The notes beneath the pieces are model-generated. The model was not told the origin of the DNA. It worked only from the letters and a program-made list of their open reading frames with translations, and searched no databases. A stretch of DNA of 64,000 nt from Dimargaris cristalligena (lineage: Eukaryota; Kickxellomycota; Dimargaritomycetes; Dimargaritales; Dimargaritaceae). The position numbers and the translations under genes are program-made. The stretch's first letter is position 1. Each line of letters begins with the position of its first letter. Of the stretch, positions 25,501-61,246 are shown piece by piece. The DNA is taken from positions 54,826 to 118,825 of the forward strand of contig JANBQC010000018.1 of NCBI GenBank assembly GCA_027576995.1, read 5' to 3'.

Positions 25501-26182
25501 TACCCCCACCCTTCCCGACGTCGCCAATTTGCTAGCTGGGCGTGACCCTAATATCGGTCTGGAGGATACGTTCGGGCACCAGCTGCCGTGGTTGGAGCTC
25601 TCCATGAGCGTATCTAATACACACCTAACGCTGGGTACCCTCTTGGACCTGGTGTCGGAAATCCTCGCCACCCTAGAAAATACGACGGGTAGCAATAGTA
25701 ACGCCCCGCCGAACCCCGCCCTAAGTACGGTAGGGGTTGCCAATCTCTTTGGCAAACTTAAGTCGAACGCCTCGACGGGTGGTCCAGGTGCCTCCGCTTC
25801 GTCCGACTCTAAATCTGGCCAATCGCTACCCGCCCTTATGACGGATGTGCTGCAGCATGAACTCCTCTACATTTTGGCCCAAGTGACCCTCCAGGCCAAA
25901 CTGCCAAGTTCGGTCCGGTCCGCCCTCGCCAACGGAAACTACCACCATGCCGCGCCGTCCCATTTCCGCGATAACATCCTACCGTCCATCTCCCGCGAAA
26001 TCAGTCACTCGATCCGGCGTCTCGAAAAGGCCCTCGAACCCCAAGTGCAAGTTTTACCCAAAGCTACCGACAACTCATCGGCGGGTGTCCAGGCCCGTTC
26101 CCGTGCCGAATCATCCCTAGCGGGTTTGGCTAAACTATGTCAGCTATACCCCGATTTACTGCAAACTATAATTCGGAGTTAA
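19526..26182 (+). CDS. NUP192: Nup192/Nup205 inner-ring nucleoporin, two exons
   Basis: A 29-nt first exon (19526-19554, ATG in a CCACCATGG context) splices over a 267-bp intron to exon 2 (19822-26182). The junction rebuilds an Arg codon and gives 2,129 residues. The second exon opens SWRQLFIALEEASSEL, which resembles the Nup192/Nup205 N-terminus and would be lost if translation began inside exon 2. The protein is an all-helical solenoid. Conserved-looking stretches include HPYVAWDFFHHLLDYLL near residue 600 and the leucine-rich C-terminal third. Nup192 is a scaffold of the inner ring of the nuclear pore and binds Nic96/Nup93 and Nup53. A length just above 2,000 residues fits the animal Nup205 and exceeds the yeast protein. 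A Nup188-type paralogue is less likely but not excluded. Confidence 0.85.
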
Positions 26183-31067: not shown

Positions 31068-34000
31068 ATGTCAGTGAAGCCCTACCAGTTGTCCGCCACC
31101 CTAGTGGGCCATGACTCCGATGTAAGTGTCCATGGTCACCTCCATGATGGCTACTCCTAAACTGCAGGGAATAGTATAGACAGGCCACCCTCGCAATGGG
31201 TCGCCCGATGCCTCGACCCGACCCGCCAATATATCTAAACCATTTACCCACATTGCCCTATTCCCTCCATCTCATAATGGCGTCCTTTTCCATTGGCACA
31301 TGCCCGTTACCAGGTGCGTGCCGTCCTGAGCCCCCACCCCGAGGAGCTATACACAGCGTCGCGGGACCTCACCACCCGACGTTGGAACAAAACCAACTCC
31401 AACCCTTCGCCGAACTCGCCTACCTTTGGCTATGAGACCACTGCTGTGTACTTGGGCCATACCCGCTATGTTAACTCTCTGGCCTATATTGGCCCCAGTG
31501 CCCAATACCCCAAGGGGCTTATATTGACTGGGGGGAGTGATAAAACCATCCTGGTGTTCGACGCAACTGGTATTGAGCATGGTATTTCCGACCCGCTGTT
31601 CACCCTCAAGGGCCACTCCGATAATGTATGCTGCATGACTGTGGCCCCCAATGGCGATCTGATTTCCGGGTCCTGGGACAGCACCGCCAAGGTCTGGCGC
31701 AATTGGCAATGTGTCTACGATCTGGTGGGTCACCAGTATGCCGTCTGGGCTGTTCAGGGCCTCTCCGACGGCACCATCCTAACGGGTAAGTATTTCGTTA
31801 ATTAATTTTCACCCTCATCTGTGCTACCCTCGCTGGAGCATCACTGCGTGTCTTTATGCCATTGGCAATTTCGGATGGCTTGCTAACTACCGCCGGTTCT
31901 TTCATTATGACACACGGTACCACGGCATCATTTTTGTCGGAACAGGTGCCGCCGATACCCTCATCAAACGGTGGCAGAATGATCGCTGTATCGGTGTTTT
32001 CCGTGGCCATACCGAGAGTGTTCGGGGTTTGGTCGTACTCCCCACTACCGGTACGGACCCAACTGATACCCGGTTTGCCTCTTGTTCCAATGACGGTACC
32101 TTGCGGGTATGGGGTCTTGACGGGAGCTGTCTACAGGTACTTTCCGATCATACCTCCTTTGTGTACACCATGTGCCTTCTGCCCACTGGTGAGCTGGTAT
32201 CAGGCGGGGAAGACCGCAGTATCAAGATCTGGTCAGATGGCCAATGCGTCCAAACATTCGTATTGCCCGCGCAGTCAATCTGGTCCGTGGCCGCCTCACC
32301 CAATGGCGATATTGTTGTGGGGACCAGCAATAAAGAGGCCCACGTCTTTACCCGCTCCGCCGAGCGCGTTGCCCCCGCCGCCGTAATGACCCAGTACGAG
32401 GAGCAGCTCGCCCAGTTTACAGTGGCTGCCCCCGCCGGAAATGTCTCGGACCAAAAATTGGCTAGCCCCGAAGCACTTCAACAGCCTGGCGCCAAAGACC
32501 AGCAAGTGATTATGGTCAAGAACCCGACGAGCGGGGCCGTAATGGCCCACCAATGGGATCAAGCTAGTCAAAAATGGTCCACTGTTGGTACTGTGGTGGA
32601 TGCCATTGAAGAGAACCGTCGGCAGCTCCACGAGGGCAAAGAGTACGACTACGTGTTCACCGTCGACGTCCAGGAGGGTAGGCCGCCCCTCAAGCTGCCC
32701 TACAATCGCGGCGAGAATGTATATACCGTGGCTCAGCAGTTTTTGACTCGCAACATGCTTCCCCAGGACTACCTGGACCAGGTGGCCCAGTTCATCACTA
32801 CCAATGCCGGAGAAGCAAATACCACCCAGTCGGCGGGGGCTAGCGATGCCCAGACTTATGTGGACCCATTCACGGGCGCATCTCGGTATATGCCCGGGGG
32901 CAGCACCCCAACAGGAACATCGTCGCTGAGACACGATCCATTTACTGGGGGTTCCCGCTACCAACCTGGAGACGCCACCTCTACCACTTCACCTGGGTTC
33001 CCGGTCCAGTCGGCCTTTGTGCTGATGAAGCAATGTAATCTACCTGCAGTGGTAAACAAACTGAAGGAATTTAACGCCGAGTTAGCCAAGGTTAGTATGG
33101 TCTATGTAACTATATCACGTAGATAACTGGCTGCATTTAATTTTATAATCTAGCAACGGGAACAAATAATAGGTGTACCGACGGTTTTCGTGTATATCCA
33201 TAGTCCTTGACGTTTCCTGCTAAGTTACCAGCATGTACACTGTCCACCCGCTATAACAATATCTTCCTAACCCAATGTGTACTGTTTCTTCCTTTTGTAC
33301 TATACAGATAAGCCATCCCTATGCCCTGTCGGATTTGCAATTGGCCTCGATTGATGAATTGCAACGCTCTTTGGAAACCCCGTCCTCCATGGCCGACCCT
33401 ATCACCGCGCAATACTTTACCCTATTGGCTTCCATCGCCACCCAATGGCCGTTTGAGAAACGCTTCCCAGCCCTGGATCTTCTTCGGATGCTTGCATGCT
33501 GCACCTCTCTGGACACCATCCGCTATACCGGGCCCGATCCCCACCCTAATGCTAATGCGGTTGATGTAGCCCTCTTTTCGGCCGGCTTGATACCACCCAA
33601 TACCACAGCGAATCCCTTTACGCGGGCCCACCTTAACCAATTTATGCTGGCGTTGCGACTCCTGGTTAACCTCTTTGCCCATCCTAAAACCGACGCACTC
33701 CACCTGGTCTGGAACCGCAAAGACCAACTCCTGGACCAAATTATTAACTGGTGGGTCCAAGCCACTGCGTCTGACGTGGTGGGTCTCGGAGTCAATGGAG
33801 GGAGTGCCCTCCACCCGTGTCGACTGGCCCTAGCCACCCTCTTACTTAATCTCACCGTCTACCAAACTACGCTCTCGCCTTCCTCCGCTGACGATGAGGA
33901 AGAGTACCCCACCCAGTTAATGGCATGGACCATCGAACTACTTACGGGTGGTACTACGGAAGCGGGGTCGCTAATCAAACTTCGTGCTAGTGCTGGTGGC

Positions 34001-34198
34001 ACGCAGGCCGGGCCCCTGGTGGAAACGATCCGCCGTGGTCTGACCACTCTAGGCACCCTTCTAAGCCGCTACCCTAAGTCCCTTCAACCTGTTGCTAAGC
34101 TGTTCAACCTCAAGGATATTTGTAATCAACTCGCCAATCATCCAGTGGATAGCGTGGCCCAGACCGCGCGGGATTTGCAACGCTCGTTTGAGTTGTGA
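31068..34198 (+). CDS. DOA1: Doa1/Ufd3/PLAA-type WD40-PFU-PUL protein, four exons
   Basis: Exons 31068-31121, 31314-31785, 31946-33090 and 33308-34198 join in frame (2,562 nt, 853 residues). Donors are GTAAGT or GTTAGT. The N-terminal WD40 propeller begins MSVKPYQLSATLVGH and shows repeats such as LVGHQYAVWAV, SWDSTAKVW and GHTESVRGL. The third exon junction rebuilds LTGAADTLIKRW. A PFU ubiquitin-binding domain follows at about residues 405-475 (VFTVDVQEGRPPLKLPYN, then AQQFLTRNMLPQDYLDQVAQFI). Next are two copies of a DPFTGxSRY-type motif and a helical PUL domain from about 535 to the end. The family recruits Cdc48/p97 to ubiquitinated proteins and maintains ubiquitin levels in the cytosol and nucleus. 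Confidence 0.95.
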
Positions 34199-41228: not shown

Positions 41229-42055
41229 TTAAACTCGACGGTAGTTCTTCTTGCCCAGGTCGAAGGGCAGATACTTATGGCGAATCATGTGCTCAATCTG
41301 GCGGCGCATGGTTAGAACGAATAGGATGATGAAGTAGATCACCAGGATGGGCCAGAAGACGGGAATGTCGAGGAACTTGAAGAAGGTACAGCCGATGGAG
41401 ATGAGTACGGCCCGGGTGGCCGACAACCAGAACTTGAATTCGGGGAGGCGACGAATGAAGGGACGGAACTCCTCGTTGTTGGACGTGGGGAGCAGTCCGG
41501 GGCCATTGGAGCTTTCGCCTTCGTCCTCAGCATCATCTTCGAGGCCGGGCATGGACGAAGTATCCCATTTGGGGGTCAGAAAGGCCAGGAACAAGTTCAA
41601 CATGTAAATGCCTAGGGCGTAGGTCACAATGTACCAGCCGTGGGTACTGAAAATCCGGGCCAAGAAGCCTACGAGGGCGACCACAGTAAAGATCCATCGG
41701 TAAGTAGTATACGAAATGGTCGAGTCAAGGAAATATTGGATTCTCTGGATTGGGGGAAACAGGATAGCATATAGATGTATGTGATATAATAGAGAGATTC
41801 ATTCGAACAGGCAGGGGTTAGATAAATGGGGAAATACGTATGAAAAACTAGGTAGTATGAGATTGGAGATTGTCGAGGGCAGATCAGGAACCGACATTGG
41901 CCTGCGACGGCATCGTGGGTGGAGCGGGGTGCTTAGTTATAGGGAGCGGAACTTACCCGCTCAAAGAAGAGGCGCTGATTACTGATATTGGTGGCGACGG
42001 ATGCCTCATTATTGTGTAGGCTGGAGGAGCCGGTGGGGGGCTTAGGCATAGACAT
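41229..42055 (-). CDS. RER1: Rer1 Golgi retrieval receptor, two exons
   Basis: Exon 1 (42055-41957, 33 codons) and exon 2 (41744-41229) join in phase 0 over a 212-bp GTAAGT intron, giving 204 residues. Exon 2 begins RIQYFLDSTISYTTYRW, the characteristic Rer1 opening. Four hydrophobic segments follow. Two lie close together after the first loop (VVALVGFLARIF and YIVTYALGIYMLNLFLAF), then an acidic loop, then EFRPFIRRLPEFKFW, the last two segments, and a basic C-terminus (MIRHKYLPFDLGKKNYRRV). Rer1 cycles between the ER and early Golgi and returns membrane proteins and unassembled subunits to the ER through COPI. Length matches the family's usual 190-210 residues. Confidence 0.95.
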
Positions 42056-43272: not shown

Positions 43273-44268
43273 CTATTTGCTAGCAGCCACGAAATCCACA
43301 CCCTTTTGGATGTTACCCTTGAGATCCTGGATGGCAATGGCCAGGAGCTCCTTCTCAAAGGCGTTGATGGATCCGATGGGGTGGATACGCTCCACACCGT
43401 GGGGGCCCAGTTCGACGGGCAGGGCAAAGTGATCCAGGCCGTCCACGGAAGCCTGGAGGGCAGCGGCATTGGCGGAGTCGGCTTCGAGGGCAACGAAGGT
43501 GGGTTCGACGACCCCCTTTTCGCCACGAAGGGTGGCGGCGATAACGGCCTGGGCGAAGCGGGCGCCGGCGTGGGCCATGCTCAGAGTGGCCGAGCCGGCG
43601 CCGTTCTTGGCCTGGACGACCTCGTCACCACCGTACTGGATGCGCTTGGTCAGGGCCTCGGCCTCTTCACGGGTGAAGTCCTGGGCGGGTTCGATTTGGG
43701 AGAGCAGCGGCACGATAGTGGGGCCGCTGTGGCCTCCCACAATGGGGATACGGACGGCCACGGGGTCGATCCAGTTCTTGATATCGCTCACGAACCGGGA
43801 GGAGCGAACGACGTCCAGGGTGGTGACGCCAAAAATGCGCTTCGGGTTGTAAACGCCCTTGGACTTGAAGACTTCGGCCACGATGGGCACGGTGGAGTTG
43901 ACGGGGTTGGAAATGATGAGCATAAAGGCGTTGGGGCAGTAGGTGGCAGCGGCGGTGGCCAGGTCGCGGATGATGCCGGCGTTGATTTTGAACAGGTCGT
44001 CACGGGTCATGCCGGGCTTGCGGGGCACCCCCGCGGGAATAATGACCAGCTGGGCGTCGGCCAGGGCGTTCTTCAGGCCATGGTTGTCGGGCAAAAAGGC
44101 GGTGACCTTGGCGGGGGTGTTGATGTGGGACAGGTCCGCGGCCACGCCGGGTACGTTGACGATATCGTAGAGGGCCAGGTCGGTGATGTCGGTGTTGAGC
44201 TTAAGCAGTAGCGACAAGGGCTGGCCGATACCACCGGCAGCACCGCAGACGGTCACTTTGTAAGGCAT
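43273..44268 (-). CDS. malate dehydrogenase (NAD-dependent)
   Basis: An intronless frame. I prefer the ATG at 44268 (331 residues, [19 protein letters not shown]) because it follows a pyrimidine-rich leader and starts just before the Rossmann fold. An in-frame ATG at 44310 would add 14 residues without the Arg-rich character of a mitochondrial presequence. Signatures include GAAGGIG (NAD binding), [15 protein letters not shown] with substrate-binding arginines, [11 protein letters not shown], the catalytic Asp in [11 protein letters not shown] and the catalytic His in VGGHSG. It interconverts malate and oxaloacetate. The C-terminus (VAASK) is not a peroxisomal SKL signal, so the protein is cytosolic, or mitochondrial if the longer start is used. 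The long antisense frame is a GC-driven shadow. Confidence 0.94.
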
Positions 44269-45293
44269 GTTGGAAAGAATGGGAGGTGAGAGAAGCGAAG
44301 AGTAGTACAAAGGAGAAGGAAGAGTTGGTGGGCTGACCAGAAAGGCAGAGGGGCAGAAGATATAGCAGGTAAGGTAAGGGTATAGAGGTTGGGGGAAGGA
44401 GGTGGTGTATATGGAAGAATCCCCCCTCCCAAGTTGCGTGGTATGGAGTGCCTCCTAGTTGTGTTTCAGCTATCTACCGCAGAACATATAATAAGCTCCC
44501 TCTGATTCGCCGATAAGGGAGCAGCGGCGCGTGAAGGGAGATGATACTAGCCATTTCCATATGTGGCGATATTCACAGTCCTACTAAACCCTCCTGCTGA
44601 AAAAGAACTGTAGAGCCCCGCTAATGAAATACGTGTGCATGGGAATAAATTGGATCCAATCAGCTGACCCATGTGCCTTCCCGTAACCTCCCGCCCAGAC
44701 CCCGCCAGCTCTCCTCCCGACCCGGCGTGCACATTTTAGATAGCTCCCCTATTTCTCGGCCAGCAAAACGAAGTCACGGCCGGGGTTCTATTTACCAATG
44801 GAATGGCACCAATACACCACCGCCCATATCCCTTACTTTCCCTGTCCAATAAACACGCGAATGAATGGGCACACACACATGCCACTAACCCCCCCCCCCA
44901 AACTCAGAAGATATCGCCGTTGAGTGCCTCGTGATTTTGTTAGCCTAATCATTCCGCAAAATATCCGCCATACCATACCATGCCATACCATTTCCGTTCC
45001 TCTTGTTTAACTACAACGAACAGCCCCTTGCGTGCTCCCATTTATCCACAGTTATCTATTTTCTAAATGACGTGCTAATCCCAAGATCCTCTCTCACTCC
45101 CGCTACTACTTCAGATACCAATTACAGTAGTCCTGAGCGGCAGAGAGGTATGCCCCAATTAAATAGTTTATTTTATATATATATATATATATATATACGT
45201 AATTCATTCTAGAAAACCGTAGTGAGGATGCTATTACTTATAGCGATGGCTCAACAACCACCCTCATAAAACCACCCCACCCGCCCTGCATGC
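44269..45293. other. intergenic, MDH promoter region
   Basis: 1.0 kb between the MDH start and the PET127 stop. It includes a pyrimidine-rich (minus strand) MDH leader, a C run near 44890 and a TA microsatellite at about 45174-45198. No coding frame is supported. Confidence 0.5.
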
Positions 45294-49549: not shown

Positions 49550-52500
49550 TTAAGATGGAGGTTGTTCTAAAAACCCGGAGCTAACCATGTAACTCAAATA
49601 ACGATTCATCAAATGAGACATTGGCAGTCGATGTAGCCCATTGGGCCGACAGAGAACCTGAGTATGGCTTGCATTGATGGTGGGGAAATTCATCATCTCA
49701 GGTAAGTTATCCAAGACAAACATTAGTAATGAATACAGGGCGTTATCATCTGGCTTCTGAGCAGCGGCCTTTAAGTGTTTACACCAAATGGGGTAGTCAA
49801 TGATTTCAAGGGTAAACCCATATACACGGAGCTGGTCAAAAACATCATTGTAGCTGAAAGGGGCCGGTGCATTCACATGAAAGGTACCAGTTGTAAGGGC
49901 CTTTGGTTCAGATACAATCCTGACTAGTATTTCAGCCACATAGTCCACCGGACACATGTTTACTGTACAATCCATAATGGGGGCCTTGCCTAGCTGGATA
50001 GAGCCCTTGACGAGGCGCCATAGGAAATCATCAGTGTTGACTACTCCAGACTCACTAGCCCCCACAATGAATCCAGGCCGAATAATAGTGCAGGGATATC
50101 CTCGGATATGGGCTTCTTGTATGAGTTTATCAGCCACCCATTTACTTTGATCATACCCAGCGGAAATATTGAACCGACTTCTTTCTAGATCATCTGACTC
50201 CGGGATTCCAGTATCCAATATGGATTGGGTTAGGTTGTCCTTGGTAAATACAGATAGAGTTGATATATAATGTAATGACTTAATATGATGGGTAGTGGCA
50301 AGTTCAAGGGCTGCTAAGGTTCCCAAGACGTTGGGCCCCCGGAATTTCTCATAAGGGTACATCCAGTGGACTAAGGCCCCATTATGGATGATCACATCTA
50401 CTACTCGGGTTAGGGACACCCATTCCGCCTCTGCAATGCCTAAATGGGGTTGAGCTAAGTCACCCACAATAGCTCGGACTTGCTGGCTACCATAGCCAAT
50501 AGCCTGGTTTCGATTAGGTTCAGTATTGATGCTATCAGTGGTCTCAGATTCTATAATGTCCCACTTGCTTTGCCAAACTAGGCGGCCCATACAACTTATC
50601 TTGATCCTCTCAAATGCCTGCTTCGAGGACTGGGCCCTAACTAGACAATGTACAGTGGCTGATGGGTAGTGGCTTAACAAAGTTGCCAGAATAAAGGTCC
50701 CTAGGAAGCCGGTAGCCCCAGTCAGAAAGAATACAGGAGCATCTCCTGGCCATGCTTCATCAGGGAATATGGTTAACCAATTATCTGAGTGGTCCTTTAG
50801 CAAAGGTGGGAGCTGATGAACAAGGTCATCAAAATCCATTGAGTATGTAGTTGGGTGATTATCAAAGTTCAAGTCAAGGGTACTACTGGTATTAGGGTTA
50901 TTCTGGAACGACTCTTGTGCAATAGCTAATTGCTCTGGCATCACCAGAGTAGGGGTACTTGGAATAGTTTGCATGTTTGTTTGGATTAACTGGTCGATTT
51001 CCAAGGCCATACCATAGATTGTTGGTTGGCGGAAAACCAGATTATGGGGGATACTGGCCCCAAAAATATTTTGAACTTGAATGGTCATTCGTGTGGCTAG
51101 AATGGAATGACCACCTAGGTTGAAGAAATTGCTATGTAGTGGGATCACTGAGTCTTCACCCAGTACCTGTTGCCAAATTTTGCAAAGGGAGGCCTGGGTA
51201 GGACTGTAGTTTGCTATAAGATTAGGCTCATCAGTGGCAGTGCCATTATCTCCAGTAACTAAGCCATCAGGTCCAAGTTTTTTAGTAATTAGAACTTCTT
51301 GATGCCACGGGAGGGCCGACTTATCCACTTTTTGATTAGAGTTCATTGGTAGGTGGGTCAGAAGGATGAAAATACTGGGGACACTGTATCTAGGCAGTAC
51401 TTGCTTCAGATGTTCTTTGATTTTGGATCCAAGTCCAACGAAATCACCTCCAAGACACATGTCATCACTTATGATTACAGGTATACCAGAGACCATATTG
51501 CCTGGAACCTGGAATGGACCAATAAACTCTGGTACAATATATGATACTAAAATATCATCACTACTGTTATTTTTCTGTAGTACTGTTACACAGGCCCGAA
51601 TCTGGGGATAGTGTAAGATATTACTATCAATTTCATCCAGTTCAACCCGGAACCCTCGGATTTTGATTTGGTTGTCTATACGGCCCAGGCAATCAACTTG
51701 GCCAGTAGGTAGCCACCGACCAAGATCACCTGTATAGTATAGCTTGCCCTGGCCGGTAAAGGGGTTATCAAAAAACTTTTCAGCATTGAGATTTGGTTGG
51801 GTAATGTAGCCCCGACTGACACCAATACCACCAATGTAGATCTTACCAACTGCCCCAATTGGTACTAGGTGGAGGTGGCTATCCAAAATATAGCATTCAT
51901 AATTAGCAATTGGGCGGCCAATAGTAACTGGACCAGTGGAAAGTACCAGAGAACAGAGACTGATAATGGTAGTCTCAGTAGGTCCATAGACATTATAGAG
52001 TGAAACAAAGGGGGTCCACTTTGCTGCAAGTTCTGAGGAAAGGCGCTCAGCACCACACACTATTGCTTTTAGCCGAGGACAGTGATGGGGTTCAATAAGT
52101 GAAAGGGTAGATGCAGTAAAGACAGCACACTCGACTACTGGTAAGACTGATAAAAACGTATCCTCATAAAAAACCAGTATTGCACCGTTGACAATAGTAG
52201 AAAGTGCAGCAAAGAAATAGGCATCAAACCCAGAAGGCACACCACTTAAAACTCTTTGACCTGGCTTCCAAAGTTCTTTAAAAGAATTGTTGCTAATGTT
52301 ATTGGCCAAGCTATTGTGCTGGACCATAACTCCCTTTGGCAAACCCGTGGTCCCAGATGTGAAAATAATATAGGCTAAGTCAATTGGTTGAATAGGATAT
52401 ACTGAACTATAGTTGATAGGTTGGTGAGTGCCAATAGCAGAGTCAGTTAGAGATATTGCACTTGGCCATTCTGTAGTAGATTTCGTTGCATTCACAATAT

Positions 52501-52849
52501 GTGAGCATTGGGCAGTTTCCATAATGTATTTCTGTCGACTATAGGGGAGTTTACTGTCTACTGGGACATAAGTAGCCCCAACTGACCAAATAGCTAGCAT
52601 AGCCAGGATTGTATGTGGGTGGTCAGCCACAATGACTGCCACTCGATCTCCCGGATTTATAGGAAGCTGTTGTAGGTAACTAGCTAATCCCTGGATATTG
52701 TGGGCTATTTCTGTGTAAGTCTGTGTTTGGCCAGCAAACTCTGTTGCAATATGGTTGGGATATTGCTGAACAGCATTGAAAAACATGTCTACAACATTCA
52801 AATTAGGGTTTTTTAGGATTGTAGAGTTGACTGGGCCACGTGAGAATTC
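49550..52849 (-). other. NRPS: terminal module A3-T3-R
   Basis: A3 has all core motifs (TSGTTGLPKG, YGPTETT, YYTGDLGRW, NQKVDKSALP). T3 has GGHS with Ser3381. The reductase shows an NAD(P)-binding TGATGFLG (3509-3516), IHNGALVHW and a YDQSKW catalytic Tyr/Lys pair (3698/3702). It is predicted to release the chain by hydride reduction. Confidence 0.9.
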
Positions 52850-55800
52850 CTTTAGGATGAATTGGGCCTCAGCTGGACACACTAGTGGTGCAGTCAGGAT
52901 TGACTGCCCTAAAGCTAATACTGACTTTATGTAAGAGTAGAAATTATGTAGTAGACGTTCAGCAGTTTGGTATTTGAAAATATCAGGATTATACCAGAGT
53001 TGTAGTTGGGCTACGGGATATTGGTAATTAATAACTAGCTGTAAATCATATGGGAAAAGAGTTTGGGGTTGTTTGGGATGAACAGCCTGGACACCAGGGG
53101 GATAGGAATAGGAAATTGAGGATATTAATAGCACTCCAACTCGGGCTATACTGGTAAATCTAGAAAGAGGGCGAAGTCCTAATTTAGCACCCAGAACGCC
53201 ATTAGCTGGGGTAATATGAGTTGCTGATACCTGACATTGTTGGAAAAGAACATTGACTAACTCTAAAATATTATCTGGTAAGTTACCAGTAAATCGGACT
53301 GGGTATGAGGTATTTGTCAAATTGGTAGATGAGGTTAGTGACTTATTAAGGTCATCTATGTGAGCTTCAAAATTGACTACAAGGTCCTCTTGGCCTGTAA
53401 GACGGAGAAGGAAAGCCACAAAAGTAGACAACCAAATAATGCTTTTACAAACTGATTTATGAGTAGCTAAATCAGATACCATCATATCCAGTTTACTTTC
53501 AAGCTTGGTTTCCACCACAGAGCATTGGAAAGCAGTAGTATTTGGTTGGGAATCATCTGTTGGAAGAGCTAACTTAGTTGTGGCATTGCATAAAAGTGAG
53601 CACCAATAATTGGTATCAGTCTTAGAGGGTAGATTCTTGTGGATATAAGGTTTGACTGGCAGTGGGTCAACAGTATCTAATTTATGGCCTTGAATACCCT
53701 GTAAGAATAGTTGAGTAAGATACTTGAAAAACCCACTATCTCCTGCAATTTCATGGACACAGAAATTGATAGCTGACTTAATTTCCCCTTCAGATGTTTG
53801 AGATACCTGGTAGAGGGTAACTTGAAGAAGGATACCTTGTTGTAGGTTAAGGTGGATTTGCTCTGAGTTGAAATCCAAGTCAATATTCTCCAGAGGCCCA
53901 GGGATTACTTGTTCAATAACTTTGAGTTGCACTTCAGGGAGAATGTGGCAGGCAAGGATACCATTGTGGGAAGTATAAGAGCAATGCAGTGCCTCAAATT
54001 GGGATACTAGTTGATCAACAGCCATTTGGACCTTTGAAATGGAAATTGGTTCTACTAATGTGAGTGTACAGTGGTGATAGAAGTCTCTTTCAGCATCTGT
54101 GAATCTGCTGAGAGACCATATATATTGCTGATAGTTGGTTACAGGAGGGCTTGAAATGTGAGGTAAAAATGTATACTGGTTATTTATAATGATATGTTCC
54201 TGTATTTGGTTAATCTTGCTATTATCCACTAATTTAGTGATAACCAGAGCTAGGGTTTTAAGGTTGTTGTGGCTAACTAAATCACATATGGCTACCTCAA
54301 TGCCATATTTCTGATATATACAAAACTTGAGCTTTTCAAACTGGCCTAGGGTGAGCCCTGAGATTGACTCATGAATCTGGGTTATTGAAGGATTATTTAG
54401 ATTTTGGGATAGGTACATCTCATTAACTAAGACAATTAACCACCATTCAGTTTCTGATAGTACCTTTGGGTATTGAAGGGAAAGGCAAGTGAGGTAGGCC
54501 TGGACAAATTTACAGATATTATATCCAGCCTGGTCAGAATAATTAGCCACATGAGGGAAACTCTTGGTAGATATAAGAGCATTTGGAATAAGCACTTGGG
54601 GAACAATGGGTGGAACTACTGTGGCCTGTAGCTTGGCTAATTCTTCCTTAGATGTATAGTCAACTACTACTACTAATTTTTCATTGGATAATACCAGAGC
54701 CTGGGGATGGATAGCCCCAACTTGAAGGAGTACTTGTTCCAGTATGCCAAGATGCACTTGCTGGCCTTGGAAATTCACCCGCTGTGATTCAGAGCCCAAA
54801 ATGTGAATCTGGTTGTCCGAATTATAGTATCCAAGTCCAAGGCCTCCAACCTTTTGAGGCAGACTAAAATTACAAGTATTGGTAAATACTAGGTATCCAA
54901 GAACCCCAGGAGGGCAGGGATGGCCCTGGTAATCTAAAACTACTAATGGAATTCCCCCTAAAGAAGAGTCTGCAGTAGGAAAAGTAAAAGTTGCTAGTTG
55001 ACTACTAGTTACAGAGCAGAACCCATCAAATACAGATCCATTATAAACTAGGTAGAGGCAGGATGTATTAATTTGAGGGCTGATACTAGATGTCAATAGT
55101 TTGGCTAAATTGACTAGTAATAGCTGGTCATTGTGTTGGGGTTCTTGTGTGAGCAAATTTGATGATGTGGCATAGCAGTTTACTGGATTGGCATTAGGTA
55201 GAGTATACTCCCCTGCTGGCTTGATAGTCACATTATATAGTAGACATGAGAGAATAAGCCAGCTAACCTCTGGGCTTCCAATGTCTAATAATGGATCAAA
55301 GGAACACTCATGTCTACTATTGAAATATGACTTGGCTTGAATAACAGCATGTGTGATTTGAGTACAGGTAATTGCAGTTATAGTTGGACCAGTTAAGCTC
55401 CAGTCAGAAATAAATTGTAGGCTGATATTAGGGTTGTTATACTGTGAATTGTAAGGTTGAATAGGTTCTAAATTAGTGCTAGGGCTATTGGTATTCCAGG
55501 ATGGTATCTTAATTATATTGGTATTATGTGGGAGGTATGCCAAGTAAGTATTTGAAAAGAAAGCTGGGAGCCACACAGTCTGGGGTTCAATAGTCTCTAA
55601 AGATGTGTTAATTTGTTTCAGAGATCTAGTGTATGGGTGGATTGTTAACAGGACATCTAGTTTGATGGCAGCTACTAAGCAGACAGAAAGCTGACTAATA
55701 TCATTAACAAAGGCTAATATAGTAAGAGGGCAAGCTATTGTGGAATTAGCAGTGGAATACACAAGGGAATCAACTAGGTGGTTGAGTTGTCCAACTGATA

Positions 55801-58800
55801 GTACATGTTCATCAGACTGGAGGACAGGGTGGCCTGGATGCTTATTAGTAATACATTCCCAAATTTGATATAGTGGAAGAGAAGCCAAGGTAGATGTTGG
55901 ATTGCAGATAGTTTGCCTGGGATTCATAGTTGGTGGATAAACTGCTGGGATAGTAAGTGTGAGCTGATCAATAGTTGTTTGAGGATCACATATAAGTATT
56001 TGCTCAAGAATAACTTGGACCATATCCACTAGTTGGGCTATTGAGGTCTCTGAATATACAGCAGTACTGTAAGATACCCTAACTTGGATAGATGAGGGCT
56101 GGTCTACAAAATTGATAGCCAGTGGATACTGTGTAAGCTCATGAATATATATATCTGATAGGGTTAAGTCAGAAAATCGGTTAGAAGTAAGGTCAGGAAA
56201 GTTTTCAAAGCCTAGGAGTGTATGGAATAGGGGTCCTGACTGGGCTAACCCATTCCATTGGATTATATCAGTGAGTTGAGAGTGCTCAAAAGGAATCATA
56301 TTCACTTGGTCCTTATGAAGAGACTGTAGCCATATCCTAATATGTGATTTATCTAGGTGAACTTGGCATGGCACTGTATTGGTACAAGGTCCAATCACTT
56401 GGTCCATAGCTAGGATATTCAAATTACGACCTGATAGAATCACACCAAAAGTCACATCATCTTGGCTGAGTAGACGGCCTAAGACTAAGGCATAAGCAGC
56501 CCGGAATAGGGTTGCTATTGATATACCTAGGGTTTGAGTTGTTTGGAGTAGTTGGGCTTTGGAAATATTGAGTGGTGTTGAATATGATGCATGACCTGGT
56601 GAACCAATATAATCTGGGTACAGTAAGGGGGCTGGTGTAGCTTTAGCATTGTGTAGATAGTCAGTCCAAAATGCCTGAGCTAATGTGGGATCTGATTGGC
56701 ATATATATCTAACAACTGCTGTAAAGCTGGTAGGGGGTGGGGATACAGCCAATTTGGGATTGTGGTAGGCTACCATCCACTGCTGGAGGAGTAGGGGCAA
56801 TGACCAGCCATCCATTAATGAGTGGTGGATAGTAATAATAATATCATAAACCTGGCTATCAGCAGTGGGGAACACAAAATTGCGGACCATATGTTCTTGG
56901 AGGGTGAATCCCTGCTGTCGATTCTCAATAAAAAATGCTTCAAGGGAATCAAGAGGCTGAACAGCAATAGTCCAGGAAGTGGGTAAAGAGGATAGCACCA
57001 CTTGGAGGAACCCCTGGGATAGAGTACTGGGTGATTCAATGAATACTGTGCGCAGGGGAGAGTGCTGGTTGGCTACAGAAGCCCAGGCCTGAATCAGTTG
57101 ATCACAGTCAAGTTGGCCAGTTAGCTTCATGGCCATTTGGACAAGGTACATTGATGGGTCTGAAGATAAGTTCATGAGAAGGCCGCCCTGGACTGCAATA
57201 CAGGGAAATATATCTTCAACCTGGGCTAGGGGAATGTCTCTTTGGTGTATTTGGGCCAAGACAGTCTGGAACCCAGTATCAGAGAGAGATAAGTGTGGGA
57301 AGTCATACTTAGTAAGCAAAGGCTCAGATATTATATTTCCAGACTGTACACCCAGGCTAGTAAGTTCACCCAAATTCTGGTGCCATCTGGCCATAATCCT
57401 AGAAATAATATCCTGGTGGTATACCCGGGGGTTATACTCTGTAATTAACCGGAGAGAGTCACCAACTATTGCAGACATGGGGTTAAGATCAAAAATAATG
57501 TAATCCTGAGGTGAAAAATCATGCAGCCCAAAGGAATCAGACCATTCAATGGAAAGAGGATCACTACCCTGGTGAGTACTTGAGTTACTAAACTGGCCAA
57601 AGTAGTTGAATTGGACATCCATTTTTGAAGATGTCTTGGCCATTAATTTATGTTTCTCATCAGCTTGGACACCTGGCATATATTTGATTATTGAGTAGGG
57701 AAAGCCTTTACCGGGGATTTTCTGCAAGGCCTCCTTAGTATATTGTAATAGTTCTAAGAATGATTGACCTGATTGGATCTGGAGTACTAATGGATAGAGG
57801 GAAGTAAACCAACCTACAGTGCGTGTAATATTTTGATCAGCAGCCCAAGGTTCCCGTCCATGGCCCTCCATACAAAAGGATATCTGATCAATCCCAATGG
57901 TAGTAGAAAAGGCCTGGGCAAATGTGGCCAGTAGTAAATCTTGAGGGGTAACTCGCCATTGGGGAGCTAATTGGAAAAACAAAATACTGGTAGACTTTGA
58001 ATCAAAATCCAAAGACACAGAGAGGCGGGCTACAGGGTAATCCTCAATACTGATCTCTGGTGGAGGTAGTAGAGAGTAGATATCGGGGATTGGGTGGTTG
58101 GGATCCATCTGTGTAGGCCAAATGTCTGCGGAGAGAGTACTAGAATAATCAGCCAGTTGGGTAGCCCAGGTTTGAAAAGACATTGTCTTTGGTGGAAGGG
58201 GTTTACCAAGCAATAGTGAATTTAAATCCTCAATGAGTATCCGCCAGGAAACCAAGTCCACCAGAATATGGTGAATAGTGAAGAAGAGTTGGGTATTGAG
58301 TGGTTCAGCTGGGTTGTGGATAAGTGCCGTAGCGACGACTGGGCCAGTAGTAAGGTTGAGGCTTGATTGGATCTGTAAAATAAAGGCTGAATAGTCATCA
58401 GGGTCCACAGTTTTCTCTAGTACCAGAAGGTCAGCACTTGTAGCCACCTCCGTAGGAATTGTTTGAGTCCAACTCTGCCCAGTTTCACTGAGTTGGAACC
58501 TTGCTCGTAGAATATCATGATGGTTAAGCAAGGCAACAAGAGCATCAGTGAGAGTGAAATGTGATAGTTGAAAGCGGTGGCTAACATTGAATAAAAATGA
58601 CTGATTGAAGTGGCTAGGATTTTTAAAAGGAAGACCGGCAAACCAATGCTGAATGGGAGTGAGGCTCACATCCCCTTTGGCTTGGACTTGAGAATCTAAG
58701 CTATTATCAAGCATTGTGTTAGTTTCTTGCTGAAGGTACTGGGCTTGTTGACGTAGTCTAGGATATTGGTAGACTAGAGGGACCGTAAACTGGTAGCCCA

Positions 58801-61246
58801 GCTGTTGGAACCTGGACACAAGTAGAATAGCTGAGATTGAATCACCGCCGATTTTGAAGAAATGGGCAGTAGCTGTAATTTGACTTGCGTCCTTCTGCAA
58901 GACTTGGGCCCAGGCCTGCCGCAGGCCTCGCTCAATACCTGAGAGCGGTTGTTCCTCAAAATCTCTTGAGATCGGCTGGTTTAAAAGGTGGTCGATGGAT
59001 GGGAGAGCCTTGCGGTCTAACTTGCCATTGGTAGTTAACTGAAATTCTGCCACTGGGATAATTATTTGAGGGACCATTTTCTTAGACAGGCGACTGGAAA
59101 AATGTTTTAAAAGAGCGGCTTGGTCTAGCTCCGCTGGACTGGTATATAGAACAAGGGTTTCCTGGACTATCTTTGCCACAGAGTTGTTCAGTCCAGTGAA
59201 ACTACCTGCCACATGCTCAATTTCCTCGAGCTCAATGCGATACCCGTGCAACTTAACTTGATTGTCAATGCGACCTAGGAATTCAATTGTACCATTAGGA
59301 AGCCACCGAACACTATCACCGGACCGGTATATTTTTCCGGGGCCATAGGGATTGTCGATAAATTTGGCTTGCGTTAGTTTGGGTAGGTTTTGGTATCCAC
59401 GGGCAAGCCCAATTCCCCCAATGAGCAACTCGCCCGGAACACCCACCGGCACCAACCGAAGCTTGTCGTTAACTACTAAATTGGTCACATTTGTAAGAGG
59501 GAGGCCGGTTGAAATATCGGCATCGGGGGTAATAACAGCCATGTTACTTGAGACAGTGGCTTCGGTTGGGCCATATCCATTGATTAGGGTACAATGCCTT
59601 GCCCATTGCGTACATAATTCGGCTGAGATGGGCTCTCCTGCAACCATTATAGTCTTCAGATTTAGATAATCAGCAGGGTTCAGCCGAGACAGGAATGATG
59701 GGATTATTATTGCCGTATCAACACTCTGTAAGGACTCAACCAAATTTTCGGTGGGAACTACCACAGTGCCCCCAGTACAAAGGCCATGCAGCAGTTCCAG
59801 TACCAATCCATCAAATGCTACTGACATCATTAATAACGACCGGTGGCTGTTACGATACACTTCTTCAATCGTTGGATTCGTGATAAGGTTGGTTACGCTT
59901 TGTTGCTCAATCATTACACCCTTGGGGCGACCGGTGGTGCCGGAAGTGTAAACAATATAGGCAAGATCGTGGTGGGCCGATGGGTGTGGTTGGAAATCAG
60001 ATGGGTCCGAATCGGGTGGTGATAGAGTGAAAGGGTCTGTCACCAACACGGGAAAATGTGACTGGTGAGGTATATTACTACGGGTCGATTCAGTGGCAAG
60101 TAGTAATGACGCGCCACTATCGTCTAGGATGAACTGGATTCGGCCACTTGGATATTCCGGGTCTATAGGTACATACGCTGCGCCGGATTTAAGTACCCCA
60201 AGTAAGGCTACGATGTAAGTGAATGACTTGGGAATGAATAGGGCAAACCGGGTCTCGGGCTGGGCACCGTATTGCGTAACAAGGACTCGAGCAAGCTCGG
60301 AACTACAATTGTCCAGCTGGCGGTAGGTCCACTCATTGGGACCATGAGTGACGGCGATATTATGGGGCACTATTTTAGCCCGGCCACTGAAAATACAGTG
60401 CACAGGCTGATTCACGCACTGGATTGGGACATTCATGCGGGAAAAGGTCATTAGACGGCCTCGCTCCTGTTCGCTGACCCAGGGGACATCACGGATCAAC
60501 ATTGGCAGTCGACTGAGATCCTTCGTGGCCCACGCCCGAACCACCGCACTGAGAATCGTGTCAAATTGGCTCGCAAACTCCTCTACGGCAGAGGCCCGAT
60601 ACGCACTGCGGGAATATGCAATATCCAGTTTAGCAAAGCCACCCACCACATTAAAGTCAATCAGCAGTCTAACCCCTACCGTGGTCAAAAGGGTAGGTAA
60701 AAACCACCCGGTGTTGTTGACGGTGGAATGGATAAAATTGCCAGGTACATTGCCAGATGACTCATTGGGTACAGTGGATTCATCACAGCGCAGAATTACC
60801 TCGGGAGGCGGCGGTGTTTCGGCGATGGTACCGGTAGGGTTAACACCAATTCCATTGAAGTCAATTGTTGGCCCGTAACACCCATCGCAGGAGCTAATCA
60901 ACGAAGTGACCTGCACCTCAGGATCCACATTCAACACCGCCCAGGCCAACGGGGCATTAACGAGGGAAGTATCGCCGAGGGGTCCAGCGGTATAGCCAAA
61001 TGCCACCTCCGATTGGTTGTAATACCGGCTTAGTAAAATGGCCAGAGTGGCCACGGCCAAATTGTTAAGGCCATATTCTGAACCAGGTTGAATTTCTTCC
61101 GATGAAAGCCGGTGACGATGGATTTCAATGCCCTGTTGGACTCGGTTGGGCTTGCCTAAAGGCAACTTCACCTTGGGATAGCTCCCAGCGGGCACATAAG
61201 AGATTGGAGCCACGTCATTGGAGGTGAGGGTGGAATACGGTGCCAT
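49550..61246 (-). CDS. nonribosomal peptide synthetase with terminal thioester reductase
   Basis: One open frame of 3,898 codons without any intron. Domain order by motif: a half C domain (about residues 30-270); A1 (TSGTTGRPKG from 434, YGPTE 558, YRSGD 640, NGKLDR 740); T1 (GGDS, Ser803); E (HHILVD 992, EGHGRE 1127, RTVGWFT, FNYFGQ); C (HHSLMDGW 1474). A degenerate A2-T2-C follows (about 1775-2790). The last module is A3 (TSGTTGLPKG 2963, YGPTE 3087), T3 (GGHS, Ser3381) and a reductase, R (TGATGFLG 3509, YDQSK 3698). There is no thioesterase. The reductase resembles that of Lys2-type enzymes and releases an aldehyde or alcohol. The epimerase predicts a D-residue at the first position. No tailoring genes adjoin it. 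By eye the first 2.3 kb (A1) is richer in G+C than the rest. The product is unknown. Confidence 0.95.
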   Translation of the reverse strand: MAPYSTLTSNDVAPISYVPAGSYPKVKLPLGKPNRVQQGIEIHRHRLSSEEIQPGSEYGLNNLAVATLAILLSRYYNQSEVAFGYTAGPLGDTSLVNAPLAWAVLNVDPEVQVTSLISSCDGCYGPTIDFNGIGVNPTGTIAETPPPPEVILRCDESTVPNESSGNVPGNFIHSTVNNTGWFLPTLLTTVGVRLLIDFNVVGGFAKLDIAYSRSAYRASAVEEFASQFDTILSAVVRAWATKDLSRLPMLIRDVPWVSEQERGRLMTFSRMNVPIQCVNQPVHCIFSGRAKIVPHNIAVTHGPNEWTYRQLDNCSSELARVLVTQYGAQPETRFALFIPKSFTYIVALLGVLKSGAAYVPIDPEYPSGRIQFILDDSGASLLLATESTRSNIPHQSHFPVLVTDPFTLSPPDSDPSDFQPHPSAHHDLAYIVYTSGTTGRPKGVMIEQQSVTNLITNPTIEEVYRNSHRSLLMMSVAFDGLVLELLHGLCTGGTVVVPTENLVESLQSVDTAIIIPSFLSRLNPADYLNLKTIMVAGEPISAELCTQWARHCTLINGYGPTEATVSSNMAVITPDADISTGLPLTNVTNLVVNDKLRLVPVGVPGELLIGGIGLARGYQNLPKLTQAKFIDNPYGPGKIYRSGDSVRWLPNGTIEFLGRIDNQVKLHGYRIELEEIEHVAGSFTGLNNSVAKIVQETLVLYTSPAELDQAALLKHFSSRLSKKMVPQIIIPVAEFQLTTNGKLDRKALPSIDHLLNQPISRDFEEQPLSGIERGLRQAWAQVLQKDASQITATAHFFKIGGDSISAILLVSRFQQLGYQFTVPLVYQYPRLRQQAQYLQQETNTMLDNSLDSQVQAKGDVSLTPIQHWFAGLPFKNPSHFNQSFLFNVSHRFQLSHFTLTDALVALLNHHDILRARFQLSETGQSWTQTIPTEVATSADLLVLEKTVDPDDYSAFILQIQSSLNLTTGPVVATALIHNPAEPLNTQLFFTIHHILVDLVSWRILIEDLNSLLLGKPLPPKTMSFQTWATQLADYSSTLSADIWPTQMDPNHPIPDIYSLLPPPEISIEDYPVARLSVSLDFDSKSTSILFFQLAPQWRVTPQDLLLATFAQAFSTTIGIDQISFCMEGHGREPWAADQNITRTVGWFTSLYPLVLQIQSGQSFLELLQYTKEALQKIPGKGFPYSIIKYMPGVQADEKHKLMAKTSSKMDVQFNYFGQFSNSSTHQGSDPLSIEWSDSFGLHDFSPQDYIIFDLNPMSAIVGDSLRLITEYNPRVYHQDIISRIMARWHQNLGELTSLGVQSGNIISEPLLTKYDFPHLSLSDTGFQTVLAQIHQRDIPLAQVEDIFPCIAVQGGLLMNLSSDPSMYLVQMAMKLTGQLDCDQLIQAWASVANQHSPLRTVFIESPSTLSQGFLQVVLSSLPTSWTIAVQPLDSLEAFFIENRQQGFTLQEHMVRNFVFPTADSQVYDIIITIHHSLMDGWSLPLLLQQWMVAYHNPKLAVSPPPTSFTAVVRYICQSDPTLAQAFWTDYLHNAKATPAPLLYPDYIGSPGHASYSTPLNISKAQLLQTTQTLGISIATLFRAAYALVLGRLLSQDDVTFGVILSGRNLNILAMDQVIGPCTNTVPCQVHLDKSHIRIWLQSLHKDQVNMIPFEHSQLTDIIQWNGLAQSGPLFHTLLGFENFPDLTSNRFSDLTLSDIYIHELTQYPLAINFVDQPSSIQVRVSYSTAVYSETSIAQLVDMVQVILEQILICDPQTTIDQLTLTIPAVYPPTMNPRQTICNPTSTLASLPLYQIWECITNKHPGHPVLQSDEHVLSVGQLNHLVDSLVYSTANSTIACPLTILAFVNDISQLSVCLVAAIKLDVLLTIHPYTRSLKQINTSLETIEPQTVWLPAFFSNTYLAYLPHNTNIIKIPSWNTNSPSTNLEPIQPYNSQYNNPNISLQFISDWSLTGPTITAITCTQITHAVIQAKSYFNSRHECSFDPLLDIGSPEVSWLILSCLLYNVTIKPAGEYTLPNANPVNCYATSSNLLTQEPQHNDQLLLVNLAKLLTSSISPQINTSCLYLVYNGSVFDGFCSVTSSQLATFTFPTADSSLGGIPLVVLDYQGHPCPPGVLGYLVFTNTCNFSLPQKVGGLGLGYYNSDNQIHILGSESQRVNFQGQQVHLGILEQVLLQVGAIHPQALVLSNEKLVVVVDYTSKEELAKLQATVVPPIVPQVLIPNALISTKSFPHVANYSDQAGYNICKFVQAYLTCLSLQYPKVLSETEWWLIVLVNEMYLSQNLNNPSITQIHESISGLTLGQFEKLKFCIYQKYGIEVAICDLVSHNNLKTLALVITKLVDNSKINQIQEHIIINNQYTFLPHISSPPVTNYQQYIWSLSRFTDAERDFYHHCTLTLVEPISISKVQMAVDQLVSQFEALHCSYTSHNGILACHILPEVQLKVIEQVIPGPLENIDLDFNSEQIHLNLQQGILLQVTLYQVSQTSEGEIKSAINFCVHEIAGDSGFFKYLTQLFLQGIQGHKLDTVDPLPVKPYIHKNLPSKTDTNYWCSLLCNATTKLALPTDDSQPNTTAFQCSVVETKLESKLDMMVSDLATHKSVCKSIIWLSTFVAFLLRLTGQEDLVVNFEAHIDDLNKSLTSSTNLTNTSYPVRFTGNLPDNILELVNVLFQQCQVSATHITPANGVLGAKLGLRPLSRFTSIARVGVLLISSISYSYPPGVQAVHPKQPQTLFPYDLQLVINYQYPVAQLQLWYNPDIFKYQTAERLLHNFYSYIKSVLALGQSILTAPLVCPAEAQFILKEFSRGPVNSTILKNPNLNVVDMFFNAVQQYPNHIATEFAGQTQTYTEIAHNIQGLASYLQQLPINPGDRVAVIVADHPHTILAMLAIWSVGATYVPVDSKLPYSRQKYIMETAQCSHIVNATKSTTEWPSAISLTDSAIGTHQPINYSSVYPIQPIDLAYIIFTSGTTGLPKGVMVQHNSLANNISNNSFKELWKPGQRVLSGVPSGFDAYFFAALSTIVNGAILVFYEDTFLSVLPVVECAVFTASTLSLIEPHHCPRLKAIVCGAERLSSELAAKWTPFVSLYNVYGPTETTIISLCSLVLSTGPVTIGRPIANYECYILDSHLHLVPIGAVGKIYIGGIGVSRGYITQPNLNAEKFFDNPFTGQGKLYYTGDLGRWLPTGQVDCLGRIDNQIKIRGFRVELDEIDSNILHYPQIRACVTVLQKNNSSDDILVSYIVPEFIGPFQVPGNMVSGIPVIISDDMCLGGDFVGLGSKIKEHLKQVLPRYSVPSIFILLTHLPMNSNQKVDKSALPWHQEVLITKKLGPDGLVTGDNGTATDEPNLIANYSPTQASLCKIWQQVLGEDSVIPLHSNFFNLGGHSILATRMTIQVQNIFGASIPHNLVFRQPTIYGMALEIDQLIQTNMQTIPSTPTLVMPEQLAIAQESFQNNPNTSSTLDLNFDNHPTTYSMDFDDLVHQLPPLLKDHSDNWLTIFPDEAWPGDAPVFFLTGATGFLGTFILATLLSHYPSATVHCLVRAQSSKQAFERIKISCMGRLVWQSKWDIIESETTDSINTEPNRNQAIGYGSQQVRAIVGDLAQPHLGIAEAEWVSLTRVVDVIIHNGALVHWMYPYEKFRGPNVLGTLAALELATTHHIKSLHYISTLSVFTKDNLTQSILDTGIPESDDLERSRFNISAGYDQSKWVADKLIQEAHIRGYPCTIIRPGFIVGASESGVVNTDDFLWRLVKGSIQLGKAPIMDCTVNMCPVDYVAEILVRIVSEPKALTTGTFHVNAPAPFSYNDVFDQLRVYGFTLEIIDYPIWCKHLKAAAQKPDDNALYSLLMFVLDNLPEMMNFPTINASHTQVLCRPNGLHRLPMSHLMNRYLSYMVSSGFLEQPPS
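52877..55924 (-). other. NRPS: degenerate A2-T2-C block
   Basis: Residues about 1775-2790 keep the overall layout of an extension module, but key residues are gone. A2 has no TSGTTG loop, no YGPTE and no YxTGD (GYYNSDN stands where it would be). T2 reads ISGLTLGQF near 2290, without the GGxS serine. The C domain has VHEIAGD at 2497-2503 in place of HHxxxDG. Despite this about 3 kb stays open without a stop. Confidence 0.75.
55937..57244 (-). other. NRPS: condensation domain with intact HHxxxDG
   Basis: Residues about 1335-1770. It opens VEDIFPCIAVQGGLL and keeps HHSLMDGWS (1474-1482), GVILSGRN and VIGPCTNTVP. Its position right after an E domain predicts a C that accepts a D-configured donor. 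Confidence 0.85.
57257..60394 (-). other. NRPS: module 1, A1-T1-E (intact motifs)
   Basis: A1 keeps the ATP-binding loop, YGPTE, YRSGD and the NGKxDR lysine (742), so it should activate an amino acid. Its specificity is not assigned; the position-235 Asp appears conserved (VAFDGL). T1 has the phosphopantetheine serine (803). E is assigned rather than C because of PIQHWF, HHILVDLVSWRILIEDL, EGHGRE, RTVGWFT and FNYFGQ. The usual Gly after the catalytic Asp is Leu here. Confidence 0.85.
60437..61159 (-). other. NRPS: N-terminal half condensation domain
   Basis: Residues about 30-270 resemble the C-terminal half of a condensation domain (LAVATLAILLSRYYNQSEV, then AFGYTAGPLG). The N-terminal lobe with HHxxxDG is absent. 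Similar headless segments stand before A domains in Lys2-type reductases and some NRPSs. It should not condense anything by itself. Confidence 0.6.

Follow-up and report, generated by a model that had tools for sequence, protein, structure and literature searches.

A nonribosomal peptide synthetase of Dimargaris cristalligena with a Lys2-like reductive end

Closest described systems and the locus in comparison

The aureusimine synthetase AusA, a dimodular reductive nonribosomal peptide synthetase (NRPS), has the layout A-T-C-A-T-R, and the alpha-aminoadipate reductase Lys2 catalyzes a two-electron reduction to a semialdehyde. Lys2 has been related to NRPSs via the A domains in a paper that also mentions terminal R domains, the available part of which describes no capture of Lys2 domains (PMC2823734). 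A report of Lys2-derived NRPS release domains was not found among the titles and abstract openings of the open-licence papers listed, one listing giving 15 of 69 matching papers; the literature base also included the available part of PMC10478498. According to the accessible parts of the sources, Dimargaris cristalligena is a mycoparasite of the Kickxellomycotina (PMC6784888, PMC10386755) that is already known for its NRPS richness, with counts of 27 NRPS genes (PMC6784888) or of 21 plus 7 NRPS-like genes (PMC7466969), and ETP-type synthetases have been suggested for it (PMC6784888).

The gene of the current study is located in a window of 64 kb, i.e., the whole stretch of DNA that was analyzed (C18:54826-118825), from an assembly of 27.09 Mb in 779 contigs. 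Its product resembles AusA in the two working modules, the reductive release and the dipeptide aldehyde logic, but differs by an E domain, a dead block, and an R domain of apparent Lys2 origin; the AusA profile NF047350 scored 845.6 bits, below its cut-off of 2500, which places the protein outside this family. The linear gramicidin synthetase LgrD (P0075) is likewise an NRPS with a terminal R domain, which, unlike that of the query, falls into the bacterial clade of both trees. With the Lys2 protein of D. cristalligena itself (P0122; A-T-R; contig C57:56288-61120) the query shares the A sub-domain, T, and R as well as the TGATGFLG and Y-x-Q-S-K-W motifs, whereas the pocket half of its A domain is of the NRPS type and is preceded by four NRPS domains and the dead block. 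A starter C remnant comparable to that of the query, truncated and inactive, is described in the available part of a report on Mortierella CalA, which ends in a thioesterase instead of R (PMC9893682). The long NRPSs of the same genome (C23, C65, C184, C584, and P0002) have the order A-T-E-C-(dead A-T-C)-A in common with the query, but continue with E, C, A, and T, and no R domain was seen in them.

Domain layout, dead block, and junction

The gene represents a single open reading frame on the minus strand that encodes 3,898 amino acids from its ATG with zero internal stops (open reading frame listing and translation). An earlier note on this DNA had proposed an NRPS of exactly this length without giving a strand, and the reality of the frame and of its domain content is confirmed (Table 1). 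The assigned start codon is plausible, because the alignments with the paralogues of C65, C584, and C23 start at residues 1-18. Pfam and motifs give the order C remnant, A1, T1, E, C2, dead A, dead T, dead C, A3, T3, and R, with two AMP-binding, three Condensation, two PP-binding, and one NAD_binding_4 stretches above cut-off; A, T, and C domains above the Pfam cut-offs, with core motifs present, characterize the protein as a modular NRPS. The order (half C)-A-T-E-C-(A-T-C degenerate)-A-T-R, as read previously from the letters, is reproduced by Pfam, motifs, and piecewise profiles, and motif reading agrees that the cores of A1, T1, E, the first full C, A3, T3, and R are intact. Chance matching is not an issue for the scores of A1, T1, E, C2, A3, T3, and R.

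Table 1. Features of the NRPS gene and its neighborhood (positions refer to the 64-kb window)
Feature	Residues	Position	Strand	Basis
Whole NRPS gene		49550..61246	-	Single open frame, Pfam
Starter C remnant	1-275	60422..61246	-	PF00668 on residues 203-237; alignment of paralogue N termini
A1	280-760	58967..60409	-	Pfam, motifs, pocket letters
T1, GGDS intact	770-842	58721..58939	-	Pfam, motif
E domain	850-1310	57317..58699	-	Motifs, relative TIGR01720 score
C2, HHSLMDG (1474) intact	1330-1775	55922..57259	-	Motifs, Pfam
Dead A, degenerate adenylation, no core motifs	1776-2230	54557..55921	-	No Pfam, alignment
Dead T, GG(D/H)S lost	2231-2330	54257..54556	-	12-row alignment
Dead C, HHxxxDG changed to VHEIAGD, second His kept	2331-2770	52937..54256	-	Profile, alignment
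A3 core with substrate pocket, of NRPS-family origin	2806-3187	51686..52831	-	Profiles, windows
A8 hinge motif, likeliest NRPS/LYS2 junction	3188-3206	51629..51685	-	Windows, alignment, site count
A3 C-terminal sub-domain, LYS2-like, longer LYS2-type loop	3207-3333	51248..51628	-	Profiles, alignment
T3, LYS2-like, GGHS intact	3334-3440	50927..51247	-	Motif, profiles
R, thioester reductase, apparently LYS2-derived	3480-3898	49553..50809	-	TIGR01746, trees, motifs
Housekeeping-type neighbors, together		41229-41798, 43273-44454, 31278-34198, 17867-18781, 553-1773	-, -, +, +, -	Pfam

The recognizable part of the half C domain comprises 35 residues near its C-terminal end (17.2 bits, cut-off 30.6). 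The core motifs A3, A5, A7, and A8 are present in both adenylation domains, A1 and A3, whose pocket letters in an anchor alignment are DGLIMAGVSK and DAFTVGVIIK, respectively; they are read here without substrate assignment, no substrate call being trusted, at what we take to be the GrsA pocket positions. E domains are characterized by the motifs HHxxxDxxSW, EGHGRE, RTVGWF, and FNYxG, and the query displays HHILVDLVSW (HHILVD at residue 992), EGHGRE(PW) (E5 at 1142), RTVGWFTSLYP, and FNYFG. The domain is an E domain by these motifs and not by profile membership, since TIGR01720 scored 58.6 bits (cut-off 74.2), compared with 14.2 bits for C2, and the suspicion that it is a plain C domain finds no support in the motifs or in this relative, sub-cut-off score. 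C2 is probably of the D-donor type, judging from its position after E. The R domain retains GATGFLG (3510) and YDQSK (3698), and with 316.7 bits it exceeds the TIGR01746 cut-off of 213.35, so that the thioester reductase assignment, questioned as a precaution in the earlier note, stands. A D-residue start and reductive release are hence supported as domain logic, while we infer the corresponding biochemistry.

The neighborhood of the gene comprises housekeeping-type genes for Rer1, a lactate/malate dehydrogenase, a WD40-PFU-PUL (Doa1/PLAA-like) protein, the latter in pieces, an FHA protein, and a major intrinsic protein. A Pfam scan of 18 out of 84 stop-to-stop frames in the window revealed no biosynthetic-cluster tailoring gene, and a tRNA scan (bacterial settings) and an Rfam scan gave zero matches in the 64 kb. 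A leucine- and alanine-rich open frame of 2,122 residues (19814-26182, plus strand) had no Pfam match, and the G+C content is about 0.58-0.61 across positions 20001-26000 versus 0.41-0.43 directly downstream.

At least 79 Condensation matches are distributed over 23 contigs of the genome, of which the query contig, seven others at length, and pieces of C304 were covered. The query, up to about residue 3400, aligns with the N-terminal parts of the NRPSs on C23 (44.9% identity, from residue 18), C65 (44.1%, from 1), C584 (44.0%, from 6), and C184 (42.9%, from 192), and P0002 on C304 is 46.1% identical over query residues 18-2668. Residues 1 to about 3190 thus match the N terminus of paralogues that are about 8,000 residues long, which had been overlooked in the earlier note, and only the end of the protein is new. 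The NRPSs of C23, C65, C184, C90, and C10 (L013-L028) end in an E-like domain and have no thioesterase, P0002 ends after T, and the C584 protein runs off the contig end. Two thioesterase matches were found in the genome (C50 and C30), neither of them on a contig with a Condensation match. A second NRPS end of 1,569 residues with an E-like terminus (L011/L012; C684:8138-12844, minus strand) converges, from the opposite strand, on the R-ended NRPS copy of C684 that is described below.

The degenerate block in the middle of the protein was compared in a 12-row alignment of the query, eight relatives from the same genome (C684, C23, C65, C584, C184, C90, C10, and C304, the last being P0002), P0005 and P0009 from the other sequenced D. 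cristalligena strain (BJ085DRAFT tags, presumably strain RSA 468), and P0066 from Tieghemiomyces parasiticus; P0009 is identical to C584 in the stretches compared. The carrier motif GG(D/H)S is missing from the dead T in all 12 rows, and in the HHxxxDG motif of the dead C the first His is replaced by V, I, or M in 12/12 rows while the second is retained in 12/12. The dead A piece matched no Pfam family at E<=1, the dead C piece still gave 60.5 bits with Condensation, and an AlphaFold model of the dead A (six rows) had a mean pLDDT of 48.8. Since dead T and C are found in 11/11 aligned relatives and the dead A is kept in nine of them (at least 410 of 434 positions; short versions with 124 and 96 positions in C10 and the P0009 gene model, respectively), a local decay of the middle block in the query gene was set aside. 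The comparison rather indicates an old, retained feature, which would have a spacer or scaffold role at most. The non-intact cores had been recognized before, but not that the paralogues share them. Relative to the C684 copy, dN/dS is 0.31 for the dead A, 0.10 for the dead T, and 0.36 for the dead C, compared with 0.21 for the A3 core and 0.14 for R.

At the other end, profile comparisons indicate that an NRPS pocket half is joined, from about the A8 hinge onwards, to a Lys2-like sub-domain, T3, and R. The A3 core scored 476.0 bits with the NRPS profile and 65.8 bits with the LYS2 profile and does not qualify as a Lys2 adenylation core, whereas the LYS2 profile is ahead in the sub-domain (70.7 versus 47.0 bits) and in T3 (98.5 versus 41.8 bits). 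The NRPS/Lys2 scores of the C684 copy are 483.4/71.5 bits for the core, 45.9/79.1 for the sub-domain, and 37.0/95.6 for T. Controls kept out of the profiles, namely 20 NRPS modules and 14 proteins of the Lys2 type, were fully separated in all three parts; the query core lies inside the NRPS control range, and its sub-domain and T fall on the side of Lys2. For the sub-domain, the control differences (Lys2 minus NRPS) were -63.9 to -36.3 for NRPSs and +82.2 to +129.5 for Lys2, with the query (+23.7) and the C684 copy (+33.2) on the Lys2 side within the gap between the two classes. The corresponding ranges for T were -75.8 to -36.3 and +58.4 to +88.3, with the query (+56.7) just below the Lys2 range and the C684 copy (+58.6) at its lower limit.

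Sequence windows of 30 residues locate the transition. Identity to the Lys2 of the same genome is 10-27% in ten of 12 windows of residues 2811-3170 (47% and 37% in the other two), rises to 67% in the window 3171-3200, and amounts to 57-60% across the T core, residues 3351-3410, and to 37-87% from residue 3501 onwards. The NRPS paralogues have a mean identity of 75% at 3171-3200 and of 34% in the window that follows, with means of at most 36% thereafter; the two thus swap near residues 3190-3210. Longer loops from about residue 3225 are present in the query, the C684 copy, and Lys2, and missing in 7/7 NRPS rows. A site count placed the best split at 3187-3275 in the query versus 3339-3349 in the C684 copy, but proved too lenient, with wide or differing splits, and profiles with controls were used afterwards. 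Since the two splits differ, the junction is certain only within about 3187-3350, the A8 hinge being its most likely position. The A7-A8 stretch is the peak of likeness between NRPS A domains and Lys2 (mean of 0.72 in the best window versus 0.27 in all windows), so that a crossover there would require no special mechanism. The chimeric A3 domain is predicted to fold well, with an AlphaFold pLDDT of 83.8 (16 rows); segments below 50 are confined to the tail and the additional loop.

A second copy of the fusion was detected on C684:3-7199 (plus strand), with 56.6% identity across residues 1559-3897 and a 5' end that is lost at the contig edge. All eight parts measured between the two copies have dN/dS values of 0.10-0.36, which are rough because dS is 0.84-4.06 and thus near or beyond saturation.

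Lys2 as probable donor of release domains

The phylogenetic placement of R points to the Lys2 of the same order of fungi. The best five matches of the C684 R domain were Dimargaritales Lys2 proteins (582-434 bits, 46-53% identity), followed by a match with 390 bits and 41%; the T-R piece of the query likewise found the D. cristalligena Lys2 first (534 bits and 53%, versus 330 bits and 42%), in a search whose length limit shut out normal-sized Lys2. In a 37-row tree of A sub-domain, T, and R, from which a duplicate D. cristalligena Lys2 row had been removed beforehand, both NRPS R domains are sister to the D. cristalligena Lys2 (100/99), and this group is located within the Dimargaritales Lys2 (100/100), itself inside fungal Lys2. 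An R-only tree of 46 rows, hand-picked from proteins returned by searches, also unites the query R with the D. cristalligena Lys2 (100/94). A FastTree analysis of 238 sequences, each with 200 or more aligned residues of R, revealed a Lys2 clade (support 1.0) of 115 single-A Lys2-like proteins and ten others, with 113 sequences outside. The ten comprise both Dimargaris NRPSs, five further fungal NRPSs, and three gene models of Lys2 that seem to be merged with neighbors (P0122, P0123, and P0129). R accordingly belongs to the Lys2 clade in three trees, whereas the whole protein, with 757.3 bits, is below the cut-off of 1030.1 of the Lys2 model TIGR03443. This Lys2 origin of the protein's end, visible in windows, profiles, and R trees, had also escaped the earlier note.

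A genome search for R domains returned Lys2, the query gene, and the C684 copy at 228-242 bits; C48 gave a partial match with 46 bits. Constraining the Dimargaritales Lys2 proteins together without the NRPS R domains gave p-AU values of 0.0449 and 0.0797, and a capture after the split of Dimargaris from its relatives is thus not firmly shown. The best 120 of 1495, 454, and 1391 matches from a set of 5.8 billion proteins include neither of the two fusion proteins; as other proteins of the same assembly do appear in those matches, no absence from other Dimargaritales is claimed.

Comparable swaps seem to have occurred independently in other old fungal lineages, where the R domains of five NRPSs, like that of the query, group with Lys2 proteins from the respective lineage. 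The R domains of P0125 and P0131 group with Mortierellaceae Lys2 (100/100), those of P0128 from Piromyces, which we take to belong to the Neocallimastigomycetes, and of the metagenomic P0126 with Piromyces Lys2 (100/100), and that of P0130 from Polyrhizophydium falls among chytrid Lys2 (99/93; its exact place is weak, 81/29). The starred branches of the 46-row tree force at least four changes, and the Mortierellaceae and Piromyces R domains are left either inside or beside the respective Lys2. In AU tests of groups that were defined with the first tree already known, forcing the R domains of all seven fungal NRPSs into one group was rejected (lnL difference of 373, p-AU of 0.000294), as were groupings of the Dimargaris R with that of Mortierellaceae (8.6e-11) and of Neocallimastigomycetes (5.5e-5). 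With a single origin rejected, Lys2 probably donated release domains four times. Windows for four of the five NRPSs (P0126 was left out) place the beginning of the Lys2 part just before T in P0125 and P0131 and after T in P0128 and P0130, compared with the approximate A8 hinge in the query. In most windows the last A core of these four is nearer to the NRPS modules of its own protein than to Lys2, which argues against merged neighboring genes.

Taken together, it is very probable that Lys2 has been a recurrent donor of release domains to NRPSs in early-diverging fungi, giving peptide aldehydes, with at least four captures (Dimargaris, Mortierellaceae, Neocallimastigomycetes, and the chytrid Polyrhizophydium) and three kinds of junction (A8 hinge, A/T linker, and T/R linker). 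The Dimargaris case would represent a natural swap within an A domain, in which the pocket was kept and sub-domain, T, and R entered as a unit.

Proposed product and alternative explanations

We regard the gene, with a probability of roughly 0.7, as encoding a two-residue NRPS of D. cristalligena in which the N terminus of the long family was fused to a Lys2 end, the dead block is bypassed, and a dipeptide aldehyde is released. The N-terminal stretch of a long NRPS would have been joined to the C terminus of a copy of Lys2, a housekeeping enzyme of the lysine pathway, which contributed A sub-domain, T, and R; the seam would be at or near the A8 hinge of the second functional adenylation domain. 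A1 would load residue 1 on T1, E would convert it to the D form, C2 would couple it to the second residue, which A3 would have placed on T3, with the dead block skipped, and the Lys2-type R domain would reduce the dipeptidyl thioester with NADPH to a free aldehyde. The earlier note had left open an aldehyde or an alcohol end; the apparent Lys2 origin of R, together with the two-electron chemistry of Lys2, makes the aldehyde likelier, and a dipeptide with a D first residue may still be the simplest product. Since a dipeptide aldehyde has a free N-terminal amine, closure to a cyclic imine and oxidation to a pyrazinone would perhaps be favored, by analogy with the same logic in aureusimines. The domain order, the dead block in common with the relatives, the chimera of NRPS and Lys2, its second copy, the placement of R with Dimargaritales Lys2, and the separate captures in other lineages are visible in the sequences, whereas chain length, stereochemistry, bypass, aldehyde, and cyclization are what we infer from the domain content.

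A transfer of R together with the NRPS from bacteria, as thought for other early-diverging fungal NRPSs, might be suspected because the closest PDB matches of the first modules are bacterial linear gramicidin and tyrocidine synthetases, because bacterial-like NRPSs are described for Mortierella in the available part of PMC8070225, and because transfer is the title claim for Basidiobolus (PMC7466969). Such an origin of R is nevertheless very improbable and was set aside, since two trees place R with strong support among the fungal Lys2 proteins, the 238-row tree separates it from the 113 other proteins, and its grouping with five bacterial R domains was rejected, although at a p-AU of only 0.0118, the weakest of the four AU tests. 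Even less credible, and equally set aside, is an artefact of assembly or gene modelling that joined an NRPS to an adjacent Lys2 gene: the fragmentation of the assembly and the lack of both fusion proteins among the protein-set matches listed would fit, but the gene is one open frame of 3,900 codons without a Lys2 adenylation core, its captured part shares no more than 46% identity with the Lys2 of this genome, and the same kind of junction occurs on C684.

More weight, though still as a doubtful alternative, is given to a dead block that remains in use, be it by a condensing or modifying dead C or by iterative use or loading in trans, in which case the product would not be a plain dipeptide. 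The invariant second His of the dead C and the constraint on all three pieces are compatible with this; the loss of the carrier motif and the broken HHxxxDG in every row, dN/dS values of the dead A and C that are looser than those of A3 core and R, and the mostly missing dead A of the C10 paralogue speak against it. That the gene is a non-functional relic appears improbable. The later modules of the paralogues are absent and the Pfam-bearing neighbors found among the 18 scanned frames are of the housekeeping type, but a frame of 3,898 codons is intact, the motifs of A1, T1, E, C2, A3, T3, and R are retained, and dN/dS is well below 1 throughout the comparison with the second copy. The two-residue NRPS with a Lys2-type end is therefore the preferred reading.

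For this NRPS-rich mycoparasite lineage, for which the parts of the literature that were available contained no product description, the analysis provides a chemical prediction, i.e., a peptide aldehyde or a pyrazinone. The seams at the A8 hinge, the A/T linker, and the T/R linker are debated among NRPS engineers, and natural fusions at all three represent ready tests of which cuts leave the enzyme working. The comparisons indicate how a functional catalytic unit of primary metabolism can pass into secondary metabolism, with repeated transfers at seams that can be defined.
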